A stretch of 64,000 nucleotides of DNA from the NCBI GenBank assembly GCA_021825365.1, contig JAKAHR010000005.1, positions 62,001-126,000 of the forward strand. Reading direction: 5' to 3'. The position numbers and the translations under genes were made by a program. This document shows positions 9,219-18,665 of the stretch, one piece after another. Each line of letters starts with the position of its first letter. Position 1 is the stretch's first letter. The notes beneath the pieces were generated by a model. The model worked only from the letters and a program-made list of their open reading frames with translations. It ran no database searches and was not told where the DNA came from. The DNA comes from Nitrospirota bacterium (GTDB lineage: Bacteria; Nitrospirota; Thermodesulfovibrionia; Thermodesulfovibrionales; UBA6898).

Positions 9219-11498
9219 TCACTTCCTGCCGGATGTCTTTCCCGCAGCAGGCTCGTACGCGAAGTGCAGGGCATCGTCCTTCAGGTCGACAAAGACCCCG
9301 CCGCCGTTCTTCAGCCTGCCGAAGAGCACCTCCTCGGAAAGAACATCCTTGATCGCCGACTGTACAAGACGTCCGAGCGGACGGGCCCCGTACAGACTGT
9401 CGTATCCCTTCTCTGCGAGCCAGGCAACGGCGTCTTCGCTGAGGCTTATCCTGACGCGCTTCTTCGCGATCTGCGCCTGCAGTTCCGCTATAAATTTACC
9501 GACGACCTTCTTCATGATCTCCGGGGTCAGCGCGGAGAAGGTGATGGTGCCGTCCAGTCGGTTTCTGAATTCAGGATTGAAAAGCCGGTTGACCGCATCC
9601 TTGCCGCGGTTGCCCGCATCCTTGTCCCGGTCGCCGAATCCCACGACGCTCCTGGCCATGTCGCGGGCCCCGGCATTCGAGGTCATTATCAGGATCACAT
9701 TGCGAAAATCAGCCTTCTTCCCGTTGTTGTCCGTCAGCGTGGCGTAGTCCATCACCTGCAGCAGGATATTGAATATATCGGGATGCGCCTTCTCGATCTC
9801 GTCGAGGAGCAGAACGCTGTACGGGTGCTTCCTCACGGCATCGGTCAGGAGCCCCCCCTGTTCAAAGCCGACATACCCCGGTGGCGCTCCGATCAGCCGG
9901 GCAACGGCGTGCTTTTCCATATATTCGCTCATATCAAACCGGGTGAAGGTAACTCCGAGGACCTCTGCCATCTGCCTGGAGACCTCGGTTTTGCCCACCC
10001 CGGTGGGGCCGGTAAACAGGAAAGAGCCGATCGGGCGGTCAGGGGACCCCAGCCCTGCCCTCGCCCGCTTGATGGAGCCGCAGAGCGAATGGATCGCACC
10101 CTCCTGGCCAAAGACGGTCTTCTTCAGCTCGTCTTCGAGCTGTTTCAGTTTTTCCACGTCCGAGGTCGAGACAGTCCGTGAGGGTATCCTCGCCATGCGC
10201 GCGATCACCCGTTCGACCTCCCGCGTACCCACGGTCTTCTTCCCCGTCACCTCCGAGAGCTTCATCTCCGCCCCCGCCTCGTCAATGACATCTATCGCCT
10301 TGTCCGGAAGGAACTTGTCGTTGATATACTTTGCCGAAAGTTCGGCCGCCGCCTTCAGGCTGCTTTCCGAATACGCGACCCCGTGGAATTTTTCATAGTA
10401 CCCCTTCAACCCCCTGAGGATGCCGATCGTCTCCGCTACGGCCGGCTCCTGCAACTCGATCTTCTGAAACCGCCTCGACAGGGCACGGTCTTTTTCGAAG
10501 AAGTTCTTGAACTCTTCATACGTGCTCGCCCCGATGCAGCGCAGCCGTCCTGCATTGAGTACCGGCTTGAGGATGTTCGATGCGTCCATGGAGCCGCCGC
10601 TGGTGGCGCCCGCCCCGACGACCGTATGTATCTCGTCAATGAACAGGATGGCGTCGGACATCCTTTCGAGACGTGCAAGGGCAGACTTCAGACGCGCCTC
10701 GAAATCTCCCCGGTACTTGGTTCCTGCCAGAAGCGCCCCCATATCCAGGGCATAGATCCGGGCCTTCTTCAGGACAGCCGGAACTTCGCCGCCATGAATC
10801 CTGAGGGCCAGGCCCTCGACCATCGCGGTCTTGCCGACCCCCGGCTCTCCGACAAAGACCACATTGTTCTTCCTCCGCCTGCTGAGCACCTGGATCGTCC
10901 TGAGGAGTTCGTCCCCGCGGCCGATGAGCGGGTCCACTTCACCCCGGGCCGCCTTTGCCGTCAGGTCGACCGCGAACCGCTCGAGAGGATCTGCGGCAGG
11001 ACCCTGTTCCCCGGGAATTTCCTCCGCATCAGCATCAGCATCCGGCCCGCCGGGCTGTTCCCGGGGGACCTTCGCTATCCCGTGCGAAATGTAATCGAGT
11101 ACGTCCAGACGGCTGATTCCCGCCTGGTGCAGCAGTTCGACGGCCGGAGACTCCTCTTCGACGAAGATGGATGCCAGGAGATCGCCCGCATCCGTCTCCC
11201 CCTTCTCAGCCGACTGGGTATGGACGATGGCCCGCTGTATCACCTTCTGGAATCCGACAGTAGGCCGGGGATACAAATCATCGTCCTTCCTGATCTTCGG
11301 CACATCCTTTTCAAAAAAGCTCACCAGGGACGACTTCAGCGAGGAGACATCACCACCGCAGGCGCGAATGATCTCTATCCCCCTTTCGTCGTGAAGCACG
11401 GCGAAGAGAATATGTTCGATGGTCAGATATTCGTGGTTGCGAGCCCGGGCATCCCGAATTGTCGCTTCGATCGTAAGTTCCAGTTCCTTGTTTATCAT
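9219..11498 (-). CDS. clpA: ATP-dependent Clp protease ATP-binding subunit ClpA
   Basis: A 759-residue AAA+ unfoldase that feeds substrates to ClpP. It has two Clp_N repeats (1-140), a first Walker [10 protein letters not shown] with Walker B LFIDEIHT, and a second Walker [10 protein letters not shown] with [15 protein letters not shown]-terminal D2-small domain follows. There is no long ClpB-type middle domain, and the first-position partner is ClpS, so ClpA is preferred over ClpB or ClpC. Start 11498 is backed by GGAGAAGGA and the ATGA overlap with clpS. An earlier in-frame start at 11516 lies inside clpS. Confidence 0.95.
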
Positions 11499-11809
11499 TC
11501 CTTCTCCATAACGCATTTGAGGGGAAACTGTCGCTCCCGGGCAAGGCTCCGTACCGCCTCCACCTTTGTCTCGGCTATGTCCCTCGTGTAAACCCCGGCC
11601 AGCCCGGCGCCTTTCTTGTGCACGTGGAGCATAATCTGGGTAGCCTCTACCGCGGATTTATGAAAGATGCTCTCCAGCACGTGGACAACAAAGTCCATGG
11701 TCGTGTAATCGTCGTTCAGGAGGAAGACCCGGTACATCGGAGGCCGTGCGACCTTCTGCCTCTCAAGAACCGCTGCTTTTTCCTGTCCCTTTTCCCCTGT
11801 CCCTGCCAT
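11495..11809 (-). CDS. clpS: ClpS, adaptor for ClpA
   Basis: A 104-residue adaptor that binds N-terminal Leu, Phe, Tyr and Trp and hands the protein to ClpA. The core (YRVFLLNDDYTTMDFVV, then HKKGAGLAGVYTRDIAE, then PLKCVME) contains the expected N/D and His residues of the N-degron pocket. A GTG at 11818 is in frame, but AGGAAGGG sits directly against it and is correctly spaced for the ATG at 11809. It overlaps clpA by 4 bases. Confidence 0.95.
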   Translation of the reverse strand: MAGTGEKGQEKAAVLERQKVARPPMYRVFLLNDDYTTMDFVVHVLESIFHKSAVEATQIMLHVHKKGAGLAGVYTRDIAETKVEAVRSLARERQFPLKCVMEKE

Positions 11810-11837
11810 CGCTTCCACCCTTCCTTTGCTGAAACCT

Positions 11838-11890: not shown

Positions 11891-11918
11891 TTGACATCGA
11901 GGAAGTTCTCTATATATT
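11891..11918 (+). promoter_or_regulatory. Strong sigma-70-like promoter of the cytochrome conduit operon
   Basis: Consensus TTGACA (11891-11896), a 16-base spacer and TATATT (11913-11918); an alternative -10, TATTAT, lies at 11915-11920. GGAGGG at 11938-11943 then precedes the ATG at 11948. It drives the four-gene cytochrome cluster. Confidence 0.7.
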
Positions 11919-11947
11919 ATTGTACACTTACATTGCCGGAGGGAAAC

Positions 11948-12964
11948 ATGACTTCTTCGAGAAGCGTCCTCTTTTTTACGATCACCCTGACCCTTGCCGT
12001 AGCGGTTTCACTGTCTCTCGCCGGATGCGAGACGCTCAAGACATCGAAGCCGATCTTGCCGCTGAAGGAGTATGAACGGATGATCGCCGGCCGGCTGGAC
12101 GCGAATTACGTCGGCACGGCGACCTGCCTGGCCGCCTGTCACTACCACGACAAGATCAAACGGGACTTTGATGCCAGCACCATGGGCTCCCAGCTTTCGA
12201 AGAAGTCCGGCCTTCCGAATGTCGATTGCGAGTCGTGCCACGGGCCGGGGAGCCTGGCCGTCCAGGACCTCACACCGGAGAAGGTCGAAGAAGACGCCAA
12301 GGCGGGAAAGCTGACAGCGTGCGATTATAAAACCCTTATCGATATCAGGAACCTGCCTGCGCAGGCGCAGTCTCTCATCTGCCTGAAGTGCCACACCGGC
12401 AACGCCACGTTCAATCTGCACAACTGGAATGCCAGTTCACATGCGGTCAGCGATGTCTCCTGCTCAGACTGCCATAAGGTGCATGTGGGGCCTGACCTGA
12501 AGGTCAAACCCCGCGACATCGGCAGGATGTGCGAGAGGTGCCACCAGGATGTGCAGGCATCCTTTGCCCTGCCGAGCCACCACCCGCTTCCTGAAAACAG
12601 GGTATTCTGCAACGACTGCCACGACGCCCACGGTGCCCTCGGCAACCACATGCTCAAGAGAGGGACCGTAAAGGAGACCTGTATCTTTTGTCACGCAGAA
12701 AAGTCAGGGCCTTTTGTCTTCGAACACGCCGAGACGATGGAGGACTGCGGCACCTGTCATTCGCCCCACGGATCGGTGAATACCCGGCTTTTGAATGTCC
12801 AGGTCCCCTTCCTCTGCCTCCAGTGTCACGCCGGGCACCGCACCTCGGCGAAGGCCTCGGCCGAGGCGAAGGGCGCGTTCTATACGAGATGCACTGACTG
12901 TCATTCTCAGATCCACGGGTCAGACCTTCCTTCTGCTGCAGGCAGAAGAAGGTTTACCCAGTAG
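11948..12964 (+). CDS. Decaheme c-type cytochrome lipoprotein, MtrA/DmsE type
   Basis: A 338-residue periplasmic electron carrier. The signal peptide ends in a lipobox (SLAGC, Cys27), so it should be lipid-anchored. Nine standard CxxCH heme sites are present: CESCH, CLKCH, CSDCH, CERCH, CNDCH, CIFCH, CGTCH, CLQCH and CTDCH. A tenth, atypical CX3CH (CLAACH, about residues 60-65) comes first in the chain. This order and the HxxH spacing match MtrA/PioA/DmsE cytochromes, which sit inside an MtrB-type barrel. The next gene encodes such a barrel 13 bases downstream. Whether electrons go out (metal or electrode reduction) or in (Fe(II) oxidation) cannot be told from sequence. No outer-surface MtrC-like cytochrome is in the window. 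Confidence 0.92.
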   Translation: MTSSRSVLFFTITLTLAVAVSLSLAGCETLKTSKPILPLKEYERMIAGRLDANYVGTATCLAACHYHDKIKRDFDASTMGSQLSKKSGLPNVDCESCHGPGSLAVQDLTPEKVEEDAKAGKLTACDYKTLIDIRNLPAQAQSLICLKCHTGNATFNLHNWNASSHAVSDVSCSDCHKVHVGPDLKVKPRDIGRMCERCHQDVQASFALPSHHPLPENRVFCNDCHDAHGALGNHMLKRGTVKETCIFCHAEKSGPFVFEHAETMEDCGTCHSPHGSVNTRLLNVQVPFLCLQCHAGHRTSAKASAEAKGAFYTRCTDCHSQIHGSDLPSAAGRRRFTQ

Positions 12965-12977
12965 GGGGGACGGGACG

Positions 12978-14957
12978 ATGAATAAGATGATCATACAAAC
13001 ACTCCTGGCGGCCTTGCTTCTGACTGCGCCTGCCTTTGGCCAGGAAAAGCCTGACCAGACTGACGCCTTGCCGTCTGATGAACTCATCCAGCAGGAACAC
13101 TACGCCTTCCCGGCCATAGCCCCCGAGGTCCGGCTCTCGGGCGGCTACCGGCTCGTCGGATCGAGCGGCTCCGGCAGGGCGGATCAGTATGAGTACCTTC
13201 ACAGCTCCCCGGTATTCGGCGGCGAGGTTCGCATCTTCTCCTTTCCCCACCGGTTCCATCTGGATCTGGACTTCAGGAACAAGAAGGACTATTTCGGCGA
13301 CGCAAGTTACGCCTATGAGGACATGGTTCTCTTCAGGGGCATCAACAGGACGCTCTTTCACAATCTGGACGCTGTGCCGATCATCGACCTAAACCCCGCA
13401 ACGTCCTCACCGGCCGTTTCCGTGCGGGATACTGACACAAGGTACGGTGTCAGGTTCGGCATGAGCAACGTCTTCCTGAGGTTCAAGACCCACGACTTCC
13501 CGTTTCACGTCTACGTCGACGGCACGCTCGTCGACCGCAGCGGCACTCAGCAGCAGCGGAGTCTTCTCGGCTCGGGATATTACAACAATATCGTCCGGGA
13601 CTCCCAGTCCAGGAACATCGACATGCAGACGAAGAATGTCGTGGTCGGCATGAACAGCCACCTCGGCCCGGTCGAGGTGGACATCTCCCACGGCGAAATG
13701 CGGCATGATGTCAGCGGCGACCGGGTCCTCTTCGACACCTACGCAGCGGCGACCGGCCTTACGCCCCGTGCTGCGGGAGAATATCCCCACAATCTCCTGC
13801 CGGAATTCAAGGGGTCGTCCAACACCCTCAAACTCCATACCTCGTACACCGGCGGCATCGTCGCATCGGCGACGTTATCGAAGATAGACCGGGACAACCG
13901 CGATAGCGGCGCCCAATCCGACTACTTCGTAGGCGCCGGCGAAGTCTCCTGGATAGCATCAAACCAAATCGGCTTCTTCCTGAAGTACCGTCACAAGGAG
14001 ATCGATTTCGACGTGCCGCGGGAGGTGACGATCGCCGACAGGACCAACCCGGCCAACTCCTACACGTACTTCGTCGAAAGTCCCATTCCGTCGATGACGG
14101 ACACCGTCTCTGCGGTCGCCCGTCTCCGGCCTGCCTCCGGAGTGACGCTCCTTGCGGAATATGCCTATGAAAACGTGCGCAGGTCCGTCTCGTTCGAATG
14201 GAGCGTGCCGGCCTCGACCCATCGGAACTCCGCTTCCATATCGGCGAACCTCAGGGTCATCAAGGGCCTGAACCTCAAGGCATCCTATACGCACAGGACG
14301 ATCGAAGACCCTGCATACAACACGGACCCTAACCGTTCCGATGAGGCGAGGTTCGCCCTCACCTGGACGCCGAAGCCGCAGATCACGACGATGCTCAGTT
14401 ACACCGTTCTGAGCGAGAAGCGCACGGACATGCACTTTGTAGACGCGCCCGACGCCCGCAAGCGCGACGTCAACCGGAACGGTCTGCTCGGGAGCGTCAC
14501 CTTCCTGCCGCTGAAGGACCTTTCCGTAACGGCGAGCTATTCCTATTTCGACAACAAGGTGCGTCAGGATATCGTCTATCATGATGAAAGCGGCGCCGCG
14601 GTAGTAGATCCTTTCGTTCCGTTTAAGGACATGGCGCATGCGTACGGCCTGAGCGTCACCTATCTGCCGTGTCCATCTGCAAGCATAAGCGCCTCCGTGA
14701 GCCATACGATCGGAAGCGGGACGTTTTATCCCGCGGACCCGAATCTTACCCAGCCTGTCTCTGTAGCGCTCTTTTCCGAGACCAAGGCCCGGGAGACCGT
14801 CTATTCCGCTTCCGGAGAGTACCGCTTCAAGAACGGGTATTCGGTCGGACTGGAGTATCGGTACAGCGACTTCAGGGATGTCCTCGATAATCCCTACGAC
14901 GATCTGATCAACGGGAGGGCACATATCGTGTTGCTGACCTTCTCAAAGAAATGGTAA
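12978..14957 (+). CDS. MtrB/PioB-type decaheme-associated outer-membrane barrel
   Basis: A 659-residue protein with a signal peptide (MNKMIIQTLLAALLLTAPAFG, about 21 residues) followed by alternating amphipathic strands across the whole length. Its C-terminus is aromatic (LLTFSKKW), as expected for a barrel inserted by the Bam machine. It belongs with the MtrB/PioB family by position directly after the decaheme cytochrome and by length. Only one cysteine is seen (in LPCPSA), so the N-terminal CxxC described for Shewanella MtrB is absent. Expected role: a sheath holding the decaheme cytochrome across the outer membrane. Confidence 0.88.
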   Translation: MNKMIIQTLLAALLLTAPAFGQEKPDQTDALPSDELIQQEHYAFPAIAPEVRLSGGYRLVGSSGSGRADQYEYLHSSPVFGGEVRIFSFPHRFHLDLDFRNKKDYFGDASYAYEDMVLFRGINRTLFHNLDAVPIIDLNPATSSPAVSVRDTDTRYGVRFGMSNVFLRFKTHDFPFHVYVDGTLVDRSGTQQQRSLLGSGYYNNIVRDSQSRNIDMQTKNVVVGMNSHLGPVEVDISHGEMRHDVSGDRVLFDTYAAATGLTPRAAGEYPHNLLPEFKGSSNTLKLHTSYTGGIVASATLSKIDRDNRDSGAQSDYFVGAGEVSWIASNQIGFFLKYRHKEIDFDVPREVTIADRTNPANSYTYFVESPIPSMTDTVSAVARLRPASGVTLLAEYAYENVRRSVSFEWSVPASTHRNSASISANLRVIKGLNLKASYTHRTIEDPAYNTDPNRSDEARFALTWTPKPQITTMLSYTVLSEKRTDMHFVDAPDARKRDVNRNGLLGSVTFLPLKDLSVTASYSYFDNKVRQDIVYHDESGAAVVDPFVPFKDMAHAYGLSVTYLPCPSASISASVSHTIGSGTFYPADPNLTQPVSVALFSETKARETVYSASGEYRFKNGYSVGLEYRYSDFRDVLDNPYDDLINGRAHIVLLTFSKKW

Positions 14958-14970
14958 AGGAATAACGGCT

Positions 14971-15897
14971 ATGAAGAGGCGCAGTATTACATTCTTCCTG
15001 TTGCTTGCCTTTGTCGTCCTTGCTCCGGTGACTGCATCTGCGGCGGAGAAGACGGTCGGTGTTATCATGACCGGCAATATCCCCTATTACAAAGAAGTCC
15101 ACAAGGCCTTCACGGAGGGGCTGGCCGCCGAGGGGCTCGGCCCGGGGGCGGCAACCGTGGTGCTCCAGACGCCGTCTCCGGAAATCATGGCCTGGACGAA
15201 TGCTGCCCGGAAACTCGTCGCCGTCGGCGCTGACATCATCGTTTCGTACGGGGCTCCGGCGACTCTTGCGGTAGTCAATGAAACCTCTGACATCCCGATC
15301 GTCTTTGCAGGCGTCTTCGACCCGCAGGCCGTGGGCGTCGCCAAAGCGAATTCAACGGGCATCAGCTCGAAGGTGCCGGTGGGAAGCCTTTTGAAGAATC
15401 TCAAGAGCATCTCAAACTTTTCGAACCTCGGCGTCGTCTTCAGCGATGCGGAAAAGGATACGGTTGTACAGGCTAATGAGGTGAAACAGCTTGAAGGCAG
15501 TTTCAACTTCAAATCTGTCAGATTAAATATAAAGAAGGCGACGGATACACCGAAGATCACCAACGTCGACGCACTCTTCCTGACCACCGGATGTTCGGCG
15601 ATGCAGTGCGTGAGCAATATCCTCGGGGTGGCCCGAAAATCCAAGATCCCCACGGCCACAACCATCGGCGGCGGCGAGGCGGCGGGCATTCTCCTCACCA
15701 TCTCTGCCAGCCCGTCAGAACAGGGCAGAGAGGCGGCGAAGATGGCGGCCAAGGTGATCAGAGGGGCGAAGCCCTCTTCACTGCCCGTGCAGCATCCCAA
15801 GAAGATCGATATGACCATCAACCTCAAGGAGGCCAACGCAATGGGGTTCAAGGTCCCCTTTGACCTCTTGACTGCCGCCACGAAGGTCATCAAATGA
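14971..15897 (+). CDS. Periplasmic ABC-type substrate-binding protein (ABC_sub_bind family)
   Basis: A 308-residue secreted protein with signal peptide [24 protein letters not shown]. The mature part has the two-lobe binding fold of the TrpX/YtfQ-like ABC_sub_bind family ([23 protein letters not shown] is typical; also [10 protein letters not shown] and GGGEAAGI). Family members bind aromatic amino acids or other small organics. No permease or ATPase gene is nearby. It starts 13 bases after the barrel gene and overlaps the chemoreceptor gene by 4 bases. A ligand-presenting role for the receptor, rather than transport, is therefore inferred. Confidence 0.85.
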
Positions 15898-17969
15898 AGA
15901 AGGGGCTTAATCTTCAGAAAAAGGCAATCTATATCGCAGCCGGGATACTCTTTTTCATCCTGAGTATCAATACCGCTGTCTTGACCTACGTGGCATCCAG
16001 CAAGTTCAAGGACGCGATCTTTGCGAAGACGTCAGCCACCGGCTCCGGCCTGCAGCGCGAATTGAGCAAGGTGTTGAACCTCGGCGTTCCCGTCGAGTCC
16101 CTCGAGGGGGTGAGCGAGAAATTGAAGGACCTTACCTCAACGGACTCCGCGATAGGTTATGCCATGGTCACCGACGGCAAGGCAAAGGTCCTTTTTCATA
16201 GCGACACGAACTTTCTCGGCAAGGAATTGACCGACAAGCCGTCGCTCGCGGCCGCCTCATCAGACAAATCGCTCAGGCAGGTCACGGGCATCTTCTATGA
16301 CATCTCCTTCCCCCTGCTTACTGCTGACGGAAAGATCGCCGGTACCCTCCGCATCGGGGTCCACAAGAGCGCCATCAACGCACAGCTCTACGCCCTCCTT
16401 CTCTGGGCTCTTGTCATATCTGTCTTCTGTTTTATCCTGTCGCTGTTCCTCGTCTCCTCGTCCATCTCTCGGTTCATAGCCAAACCGATCATGGCGATGG
16501 AAAAAGCTGCGGACAGAATCGCCTCAGGAGACCTCACGTCCTCGATAGATGTCCGCGGAGAAGACGAGATCGCTTCCCTTGGCAGGGCCATCAACCGCAT
16601 GGCCTTCAACCTGAAGGACATGCTCTCGAAGATCGGCGGCATCACCAACAGCGTATCTTCGGTGACTGCCAATATCGCCGCCGCTTCACAGGGGGTCCTT
16701 TCTGCGGCGGAGATCCAGAAGAAGGCGGTCGAAGAGACCGCATCCGCCATCGAGGAGATGGACGAATCGGTCGCAAAGGTCGCCACCAGTTCCAACAGCC
16801 TCTCCGAGTCCGCCTCCGACACCTCGTCGTCCATCCTGGAACTCTCCGCCTCGATCGAAAGGATCGCCGAGAACACGAACGTCTTCAGCGAGACGGCGCA
16901 TGAAACCGCCTCTTCCATCGAGGAGATGATCTCTTCCATCAAGAACATCGCCGAGAGCATCGGAAACCTCTCGGCCTCCTCAGAGGCAATCGCCTCCTCC
17001 GTCGACCAGGTGAATGCGGCCACCAAGGACATTGAGCACCGCGCCCAGGAATCGGTCCGCCTAGCCGAAACGGTCATGGAGAACGCCTCGGACAAGGGAG
17101 TCAGCGCCGCCCGGGCCGCGACCGAGGGGATGGAGAACATCAAAACGAGCGTCGCAGCCCTCTCGGATGTCATCAACATGCTCGGTAAGCGCACCAACGA
17201 TATCGGCAAGATCCTCACCGTCATCGACGATGTCGCTGACCAGACAAACCTCCTCGCCCTCAATGCGGCAATACTGGCATCGAAGGCCGGGGAACACGGC
17301 AAGGGGTTTTCGATCGTCGCCGATGAGATCAAGAATCTCGCTGAGCGGGCGTCGGTCTCCACCAGCGAGATAGCCTCGCTGATCCGGTCGGTCCAGGATG
17401 TGACGAAGTCCAGCATCAAGATGGCCCTTGACGGCATTCAGACGGTAGAGAAGGGGATCACCCTCGTGGCCGGGGTCCACGGGGCGTTGGGCGATATCTT
17501 CGAGAGTTCGAGGGCCGCGACCGAGATGGCAAAGGCGATTCAGCGGGCCACGGCGGAAGAGTCCACGGTCATCAAGCAGATAACGAATTCCATTGAGGGG
17601 ATGTCTGAACAGACCGAAAACATCTCGCGCGCCATCCAGGAACAGAGCAAGGGAAGCAAATTCATCATCGAGGCGACCGAGAGGGTAAAGGATCTGTCGC
17701 GTCAGGTAAAGACAGCCACCGGGGAGCAGAAGGACGGAAGCAAACAGATCGCCGGGGTCATAGAAAACGTTACCCTGCAGACCTCACAGATCGCCGGGGC
17801 GATCAGCAAGCAGAAGGAAAAATCCGCCCTCATCGTCCGGTCCATGGAGAGGATCCACGACTCGACAGGGAACCTGAGCGAGTCGGCCCACGATATGAAC
17901 AAGGTGATCACGGCCCTGCAGGACGAGGCGATGAATCTCCTGAAGGAGATCCAGAAATTCAGGGTGTAG
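15894..17969 (+). CDS. Methyl-accepting chemotaxis protein
   Basis: A 691-residue transmembrane chemoreceptor. Helix about 10-31, a periplasmic sensing region about 32-168 of single-Cache size, second helix about 169-192, HAMP about 193-245, then a long helical signalling domain. The hairpin tip (about 443-490) reads [24 protein letters not shown]; the usual AAIEAARAGE is altered to [10 protein letters not shown] but the tip is intact. There is no C-terminal CheR-binding pentapeptide (it ends EIQKFRV). Start ATG overlaps the binding-protein stop (ATGA), so the two are likely made together. Confidence 0.93.
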
Positions 17970-17990: not shown

Positions 17991-18665
17991 CTACTTGGGT
18001 TTTCGCGCCTGCAGGAGTTTCTTCGACGCGCTTCGTACGGCCTCCGCAAGGTTCTTGTTCCTCTCCAGGATGACGAGGTCCTTTGTCTTGAGATCGCTCA
18101 CGTGCGAGATGCTGATGCCGGGCGGGGTCTTGGGATTTGTAACAAGCGCCTGTACGACGGCATAGTTCTTCATCCACTCCCGGTTCTTCGAGATCCTCCT
18201 GAGCGCCTCTTCGAGCGACTGCCGCGACTTGGCGATCATCTCGATCTCCGTCACCGTGATCTTGCCGTTTTCAAGGATGCTCAGCATCACCTCCTTGTTC
18301 GAGTCCCGGGCGAGGATGCCCCGTATCTCGCGGCCGCCCTTCAGGGCCAGCTGGATTCGTGCGGAGACATTCAGCCTCTGTATCCTCTGCGTCAGGCTCT
18401 CGGCCCTCTGTTCCTGCGTCTTTTCTGCCCTCGCCGTCTTCGGGGGGAGCACCGGCAGCTGCATAATGCCGTTGATATACTGTCTGACCGTCTCCGGTGT
18501 TTCGGGGTGGTCGAGGAGGAGCCTGAGGATTTCGGGACGCCCCGCATTTGCCCGGGCAATCTCATCAAAAAGCTCCGGCTCCGAGCTGTCTTCGAGAAAG
18601 ACCTCGATCACCTCCCTGGATGCAGAGGCGAGGTCCAGTTCAAGCAGCAACTTGTTTTCTTCCAT
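17991..18665 (-). CDS. Uncharacterised helical-repeat protein (paralogue of 57457-58299)
   Basis: A 224-residue cytoplasmic protein with no signal peptide. It is built of short helix pairs like HEAT repeats; one repeat (NPKTPPGISISHVSDL followed by KTKDLVILERNKNLAEAVR) aligns by eye with NPATPQRVTFSLLKFL and DLAEIARDQHVPIAVR in the protein at 57457-58299. A charged stretch occurs near residues 75-90. The ATG follows the tlyA stop with no gap, so it is co-translated with tlyA. Function unknown; a scaffold or binding role is a guess. Confidence 0.7.
   Translation of the reverse strand: MEENKLLLELDLASASREVIEVFLEDSSEPELFDEIARANAGRPEILRLLLDHPETPETVRQYINGIMQLPVLPPKTARAEKTQEQRAESLTQRIQRLNVSARIQLALKGGREIRGILARDSNKEVMLSILENGKITVTEIEMIAKSRQSLEEALRRISKNREWMKNYAVVQALVTNPKTPPGISISHVSDLKTKDLVILERNKNLAEAVRSASKKLLQARKPK

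Follow-up and report, generated by a model that had tools for sequence, protein, structure and literature searches.

Genes of a putative electron conduit kept together with a binding protein and a chemoreceptor gene in Nitrospirota

How bacteria locate electron acceptors or donors that are solid is not settled; for Shewanella, the signal is likewise unsettled, and the genes involved are unlinked there. Here, we ask why four genes that appear to join electron transfer to sensing stand side by side in a Nitrospirota genome. They lie in a 64,000-nucleotide stretch (the window; GenBank assembly GCA_021825365.1, contig JAKAHR010000005.1, positions 62,001 to 126,000) from a member of the order Thermodesulfovibrionales and encode a multiheme c-type cytochrome, an outer-membrane barrel, a periplasmic solute-binding protein (SBP), and a methyl-accepting chemotaxis protein (MCP). 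A first-pass annotation, made from the sequence of the window, had proposed a sensing unit in which the SBP detects an electron shuttle, metal chelate, or other acceptor and drives taxis toward sites where the conduit can work. Comparison with other genomes gives strong support to the view that the conduit belongs with the sensory genes in one unit. The reading that we favor, at a probability of roughly 55%, is that of a conserved conduit-plus-sensor operon whose SBP-fed receptor drives a dedicated Esn-like chemosensory pathway.

All four open reading frames (ORFs) are on the + strand, with gaps of 13, 13, and −4 bases (Table 1); coordinates, strands, and gaps were exactly as the first-pass annotation gave them. 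Since the neighbors on both sides run on the opposite strand (clpS at 11495-11818 on the left, diverging; an ORF at 17991-18665 on the right, converging), the unit consists of exactly four genes. The consensus promoter claimed ahead of the cytochrome gene was found as well, and its hexamers recur at the equivalent position in L005, a Nitrospirae metagenome-assembled genome that is the nearest relative, where they precede the orthologous operon.

Table 1. Features of the four-gene unit, in window coordinates.
Feature	Position	Strand	Remark
Sigma-70-type promoter, TTGACA-16-TATATT (or 18-TATTAT)	11891..11920	+	11/12 consensus matches
Lipoprotein decaheme c-type cytochrome (MtrA/DmsE/GSU2203 type)	11948..12964	+	TIGR03508
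First heme-type motif CX3CH (CLAACH)	12125..12142	+	Replaces CXXCH
Outer-membrane beta-barrel, MtrB/PioB-GSU2204-like	12978..14957	+	Family-level profile matches
Periplasmic SBP, PF04392, TrpX-like	14971..15897	+	PF04392 5e-26
Cys208 + Cys213 (CX4C) of the SBP	15592..15609	+	Clade-specific
Chemoreceptor (MCP), 691 aa	15894..17969	+	sCache_3_2 + HAMP + MCPsignal

Among 176 genomes of the order, the SBP was found in 59 (E ≤ 1e-40) and the cytochrome in 62 (E ≤ 1e-50). The first 30 relatives examined all had the barrel-SBP-MCP order, even where barrel identity was as low as 32%. We then counted arrangements at the 46 loci of the order with full cytochrome and barrel genes, 3 of which were unreadable or ambiguous. 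The SBP and MCP genes followed the barrel gene at 25 loci, and at 2 loci the SBP was behind the barrel and the MCP in front. A cassette of SBP, PhnD-like SBP, and histidine kinase (HK) was found at eight loci and an SBP-MtrC arrangement at one, while seven had neither sensory arrangement. Expressed for the 42 loci with readable context, the counts are 27 with SBP and MCP, 8 with SBP, PhnD, and HK, and 7 with neither. Genes were called by a simple longest-ORF method, and some starts and gaps are approximate. The seven conduit loci of the order that lack sensory genes would fit a chance neighborhood devoid of functional meaning. However, gene order, strand, and tight spacing recur over several families and in other lineages of the phylum, and chance, contradicted by these synteny counts, is hardly credible.

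In the phylum sample of 396 genomes, where the cytochrome family shows a sharp edge, 25 genomes outside the order had the cytochrome, 25 the SBP, and 23 both. All 24 cytochrome-SBP pairs outside the order share a contig, their starts being 2.8 to 3.1 kb apart. At 19 of the 20 loci outside the order that were read in detail, the SBP gene was directly behind those of the cytochrome and barrel, mostly with an MCP gene next; at several loci, an MtrC-like cytochrome was inserted or lay upstream. The conserved conduit-SBP-MCP order for which the first-pass annotation had suggested a genome search thus recurs in the order and across the phylum. Its premise that MtrAB modules do not normally adjoin sensory genes fails in Nitrospirota, where they usually do.

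The identity of the receptor half varies. In a tree of SBPs, those linked to MCPs all formed one group (support 100), and conduit-linked HK cassettes fell into two separate groups. The barrel tree required seven changes of partner label and placed the HK-linked loci L054 and L057 inside a supported set with window-type barrels. Since the two trees place the partners in this way, the sensory half was replaced behind related conduits. Despite this replacement, some SBP-receptor cassette usually accompanies the conduit. Lack of CheA was considered as a cause of the switch from MCP to HK and rejected, as CheA is present in 160 of the 176 genomes. Nearly all sensor kinases of the HK cassettes hold one CXXCH motif (L054:9804-11768, L072:5084-7063, and similar), and the window genome also encodes a PF04392 SBP domain fused to a PAS-histidine kinase-receiver protein (L060:6470-9304, − strand).

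A direct link between conduit and chemosensory genes was found at ten loci (L159-L168) of families f24 and f25, which are classified to the same phylum only. There, the conduit block lies inside a chemosensory cluster, which begins with CheY, CheA, an AAA ATPase, CheW, (MtrC-like), cytochrome, barrel, SBP, MCP, (MCP) and continues with CheW, a HEAT protein, CheR, CheB, GAF, and CheY; contig ends truncate some of these loci, and no conduit genes could be read at L168. This location of the unit suggests that the cells sense what they exchange electrons with. Directly upstream of CheY-CheA in f24/f25, a gene for a DUF4388 (PF14332) protein was observed (L177:8486-9736, L179:6210-7424, and L181:18377-19609), assigned by a domain match for L177 and by N-terminal sequence for L179 and L181.

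The window genome has a matching che cluster on another contig, C14, with two MCPs and no conduit. The window MCP and the C14 MCPs have the tip NAAILA in common, and a sensor domain of the Pfam Mcp40H-20 type is present in one of the C14 MCPs. The C26-cluster MCPs have NAAIEAARAG, the canonical tip, and stand apart from the window MCP. In the receptor tree, window-type MCPs and the first MCP after the SBP in f25 clusters formed one group with support 99, outside of which the tree has long branches. The cluster-type CheR, whose presence or absence is clear-cut, was found in 35 of the 38 genomes that carry the SBP-MCP unit and in 46 of the 138 that lack it, an association whose genome-level P value ignores kinship; at the level of families, it was present in 8/8 with the unit versus 1/5 without (P = 0.007). 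Judging by tip sequence and by synteny in relatives, the window MCP most likely feeds the C14-type pathway and not the canonical one.

The likely pathway resembles Esn of Geobacter, in which EsnA is an MCP of class 40H, EsnB a CheW, and EsnC a CheA (PMC5585712). The likeness lies in the CheA-ATPase-CheW order, in one cluster MCP having a class-40H sensor domain, and in the link to extracellular electron transfer. In contrast to the window receptor, which senses the periplasm and is encoded together with a conduit, EsnA has no periplasmic domain, and no SBP or conduit is reported in the Esn cluster. Esn affects the colonization of electrodes; its mutants grow poorly on them and reduce Fe(III) normally, and the system is proposed to act through cyclic di-GMP (c-di-GMP) (PMC5585712). 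Therefore, the "taxis" of the first-pass annotation may be too narrow, while its view of conduit and sensory genes as one unit is upheld: the arrangement is conserved phylum-wide, the receptor half has been exchanged for another type at some loci, and the unit lies inside a che cluster in other lineages. The gene order shared with esnC-GSU2221-esnB and the electrode phenotype of Esn mutants (PMC5585712), as well as the 40H-type sensor domain on the C14 MCP and the DUF4388 gene upstream in f24/f25, would also fit a non-motility output (c-di-GMP, pili, or biofilm), by which the unit commits cells to a surface. Such an output, which rivals the favored reading in this one respect and otherwise overlaps it, is possible, though we do not lean toward it: flagellin is present in the window genome, and for neither CheY was an output domain traced.

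What the conduit half does is suggested by its families. The cytochrome scored 247.1 bits against TIGR03508 (DmsE-type decaheme; cutoff 192.2; E = 2e-73), and its best match in the PDB was 6r2q_A (2.6e-44). It has a lipobox cysteine, Cys27, and ten heme-type motifs. This number and the TIGR03508 score bear out the earlier label "decaheme", with the reservation that only nine motifs are CXXCH, the first being CX3CH. In 54/54 relatives, CX3CH, the lipobox Cys, and both Cys and the His of the remaining heme motifs were invariant. The barrel has a signal peptide and a C-terminal aromatic residue (FSKKW). Its earlier description as MtrB-like holds for the family, 29 orthologs of which matched NF041027 (29/29), PF11854 (25/29; E ≤ 0.001, best 1.3e-15), and TIGR03509 (16/29), but is weak for the window sequence by itself (PF11854, E = 0.03; 13.3 bits versus a cutoff of 23). 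When the barrel profile was compared with PDB sequences, MtrB was not found, and the sole match, to a siderophore receptor, was weak.

Decaheme cytochromes adjoin MtrB-family barrels in the MtrAB, PioAB, and MtoAB conduits and in GSU2203 (OmcK)-GSU2204 of Geobacter, an arrangement that the window pair, with its MtrB-like barrel, would share. Compared with MtrAB and GSU2203-GSU2204, the window cytochrome has a lipobox and a CX3CH first motif, and the operon is without an outer cytochrome, the SBP and chemoreceptor coming next instead. At 230.6 bits for the cytochrome (NF041028 cutoff, 325) and 102.8 bits for the barrel (NF041027 cutoff, 350), the pair is, by score, related to the GSU2203/GSU2204 family and not a member of it. 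In Geobacter, these nearest named conduit genes lie close to esnB/esnC by locus number, in the range GSU2203-GSU2222. As an inference from family, the conduit would carry electrons across the outer membrane; the direction of flow through it is likewise presumed. Directly upstream of the conduit, some genomes encode a six-heme protein of ~470 to 540 aa (L042:3662-5116, L039, L043, L044, L088, and L105). A 1301-aa open frame ~9 kb before the start of the window (G000:C11:50277-53237) gave weak MtrC/MtrF-like matches and is possibly a large multiheme cytochrome.

The SBP has a signal peptide and no lipobox, and its relatives of known structure are 3lft, 6hni, and 3lkv. With 111.5 bits against a cutoff of 390 for the TrpX equivalog NF041285, it scored much too low for a TrpX, whose partners would be TrpY/TrpZ. 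There is no ABC permease or ATPase among the four genes, and no permease matching the SBP was found genome-wide, BPD_transp_2 permeases occurring only as three adjacent LivHM-type pairs. This supports the earlier suggestion of a binding protein without a transporter; HK-linked homologs of the SBP likewise adjoin a receptor, not a transporter.

For structurally known PF04392 relatives, the ligands are Tyr, Phe, or Trp, whose amino and acid groups are held in a common mode (PMC6816091), as would be expected if the SBP and MCP were an ordinary nutrient chemoreceptor for an aromatic amino acid or similar compound that merely shares the conduit promoter. However, the aligned loops TGVSD and PIDN/PTDN of the amino acid binders read TGISS and TTGC in the window SBP. 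Because the acidic/amide positions at these loops differ, an amino acid ligand appears less likely, and this applies to the aromatic amino acids that had been suggested for a ligand screen. The nutrient explanation is also at odds with a linkage kept phylum-wide, in which the HK cassette substitutes for the receptor half behind related conduits, and we consider it improbable. TrpX, CD0873, and VC_1101, the aromatic amino acid binders of PF04392 (PMC6816091), belong to the same protein family by sequence; the window SBP differs from them in its aligned pocket loops and in having no permease partner. The place of the "DN" of these relatives is occupied by the CX4C pair Cys208/Cys213. Among MCP-linked SBPs of the order, C208 was present in 31/31 and C213 in 97%; in HK-linked SBPs, Ala is the most frequent residue. 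The candidacy of Cys208/Cys213 as the defining ligand site was weakened, since the pair is absent from most MCP-linked SBPs of other lineages.

The window MCP is laid out as TM1 (first transmembrane segment), sCache_3_2, TM2, HAMP, and a long signaling hairpin, with the periplasmic domain at about residues 33-165; the ~450 residues after HAMP would, by length alone, be nearer to 64 heptads than to 40. The coupling of the SBP gene to the MCP gene, noted earlier from the −4 overlap, recurs: a 4-base overlap between the SBP stop and the MCP start was seen at 17 of the 28 SBP-MCP junctions, and SBP-PhnD junctions showed the same overlap at 17/28. From this gene coupling, the SBP-HK cassettes, and the lack of a matching permease, we infer that the SBP contacts the receptor.

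Several results weigh against the favored reading. The SBP could serve the conduit instead of the receptor. At L150, L152, L153, and L155, an MtrC-like gene parts the SBP from the MCP and the SBP stays beside the barrel, and at L154 a conduit with SBP has no adjoining receptor. Distances of the SBP track those of the barrel nearly as well as those of the MCP (correlations of 0.87 and 0.89). These observations fit an explanation in which the SBP functions within the conduit, keeping or handing over a shuttle, cofactor, or metal in the periplasm, the receptor detects redox state or some other ligand on its own, and cotranscription provides joint expression only. We regard it as unlikely, since the PF04392-PhnD-HK cassette, there with a HAMP-GAF HK, is also widespread in the order at 18 loci that have no conduit (L045, L046, L049, L061-L071, and L074-L077), which indicates that close SBP paralogs are receptor partners, and since the 4-base overlaps join the SBP to MCP or PhnD. 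The Cache domain could also bind the ligand directly; in the mirror-tree comparison, SBP and Cache domain gave no signal more specific than the general one between SBP and MCP (partial r = −0.02). To these points are added the 7 of 46 cytochrome-barrel loci without either sensory arrangement, the phylogenetic nonindependence of the genome counts, and unusable AlphaFold models of the barrel [predicted local distance difference test (pLDDT) of 28, from 3 sequences] and the SBP (pLDDT of 44, from 4 sequences), their poor quality probably being due to the three or four alignable sequences available.

According to the conduit-plus-sensor reading, the decaheme lipoprotein and the barrel would form an MtrAB-like electron path across the outer membrane, and the SBP, which has no transporter partner, would bind a solute tied to electron exchange. 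The solute would most likely be a soluble electron carrier, a chelate, or a product of the extracellular reaction, and not an aromatic amino acid. The ligand-loaded SBP would dock on the periplasmic Cache domain of the co-encoded chemoreceptor, which would drive the C14 pathway (CheA-AAA ATPase-CheW-HEAT-CheR-CheB-GAF-CheY), encoded on another contig, and so bias movement or surface colonization toward places where the conduit can work. Both the ligand class and the behavioral output are presumed. More tentatively, the decaheme/barrel pair may itself pass redox information or a redox-converted ligand to the SBP, which would gate a dedicated chemosensory array. If this is true, the wire used for respiration is also the one by which the cell reads electron acceptors or donors outside it.

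Soluble binding proteins also act with transmembrane receptors in TorT-TorS and LuxP-LuxQ. Stimulation of receptors by SBPs has been called widespread, with MBP-Tar and LsrB-Tsr of E. coli as examples (PMC9602780); the window pair would likewise combine a soluble SBP with a transmembrane receptor. In Shewanella, congregation at minerals requires mtrBC/omcA and the Cache MCP SO_2240, and the redox carrier that is sensed is proposed to be a flavin (PMC5789149, PMC6336422). This congregation, or energy taxis, resembles our case in its pairing of a conduit with a Cache MCP. It differs in that the Shewanella genes, judged by locus tag, are not linked and no SBP has been reported, whereas here conduit, SBP, and MCP form one operon. 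A literature search that covered few subscription papers and preprints did not turn up a porin-cytochrome conduit described as sharing an operon with an SBP and a chemoreceptor or as lying inside a chemosensory cluster, nor a description of PF04392 paired with an electron conduit. The components and conduit-dependent taxis are already known; the gene arrangement is apparently undescribed, which is not proof of absence. Conduit, SBP, and receptor are kept together across the phylum and, in some lineages, within one chemosensory cluster. The arrangement singles out one SBP for direct ligand screening and offers a signature by which genes of redox-sensing systems can be recognized in Nitrospirota that are uncultured.

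A different combination of SBP and receptor was observed in MCPs that carry a PhnD-like SBP domain (PF12974) at the C terminus, after the signaling domain. Such MCPs are encoded in the window genome (L134:6483-9335 and L136:5437-8415, both on the − strand) and at L160:8809-11712, L181:3747-6641 (−), and L181:10789-13653 (−). Unless the topology differs, this position would put the SBP fold in the cytoplasm.

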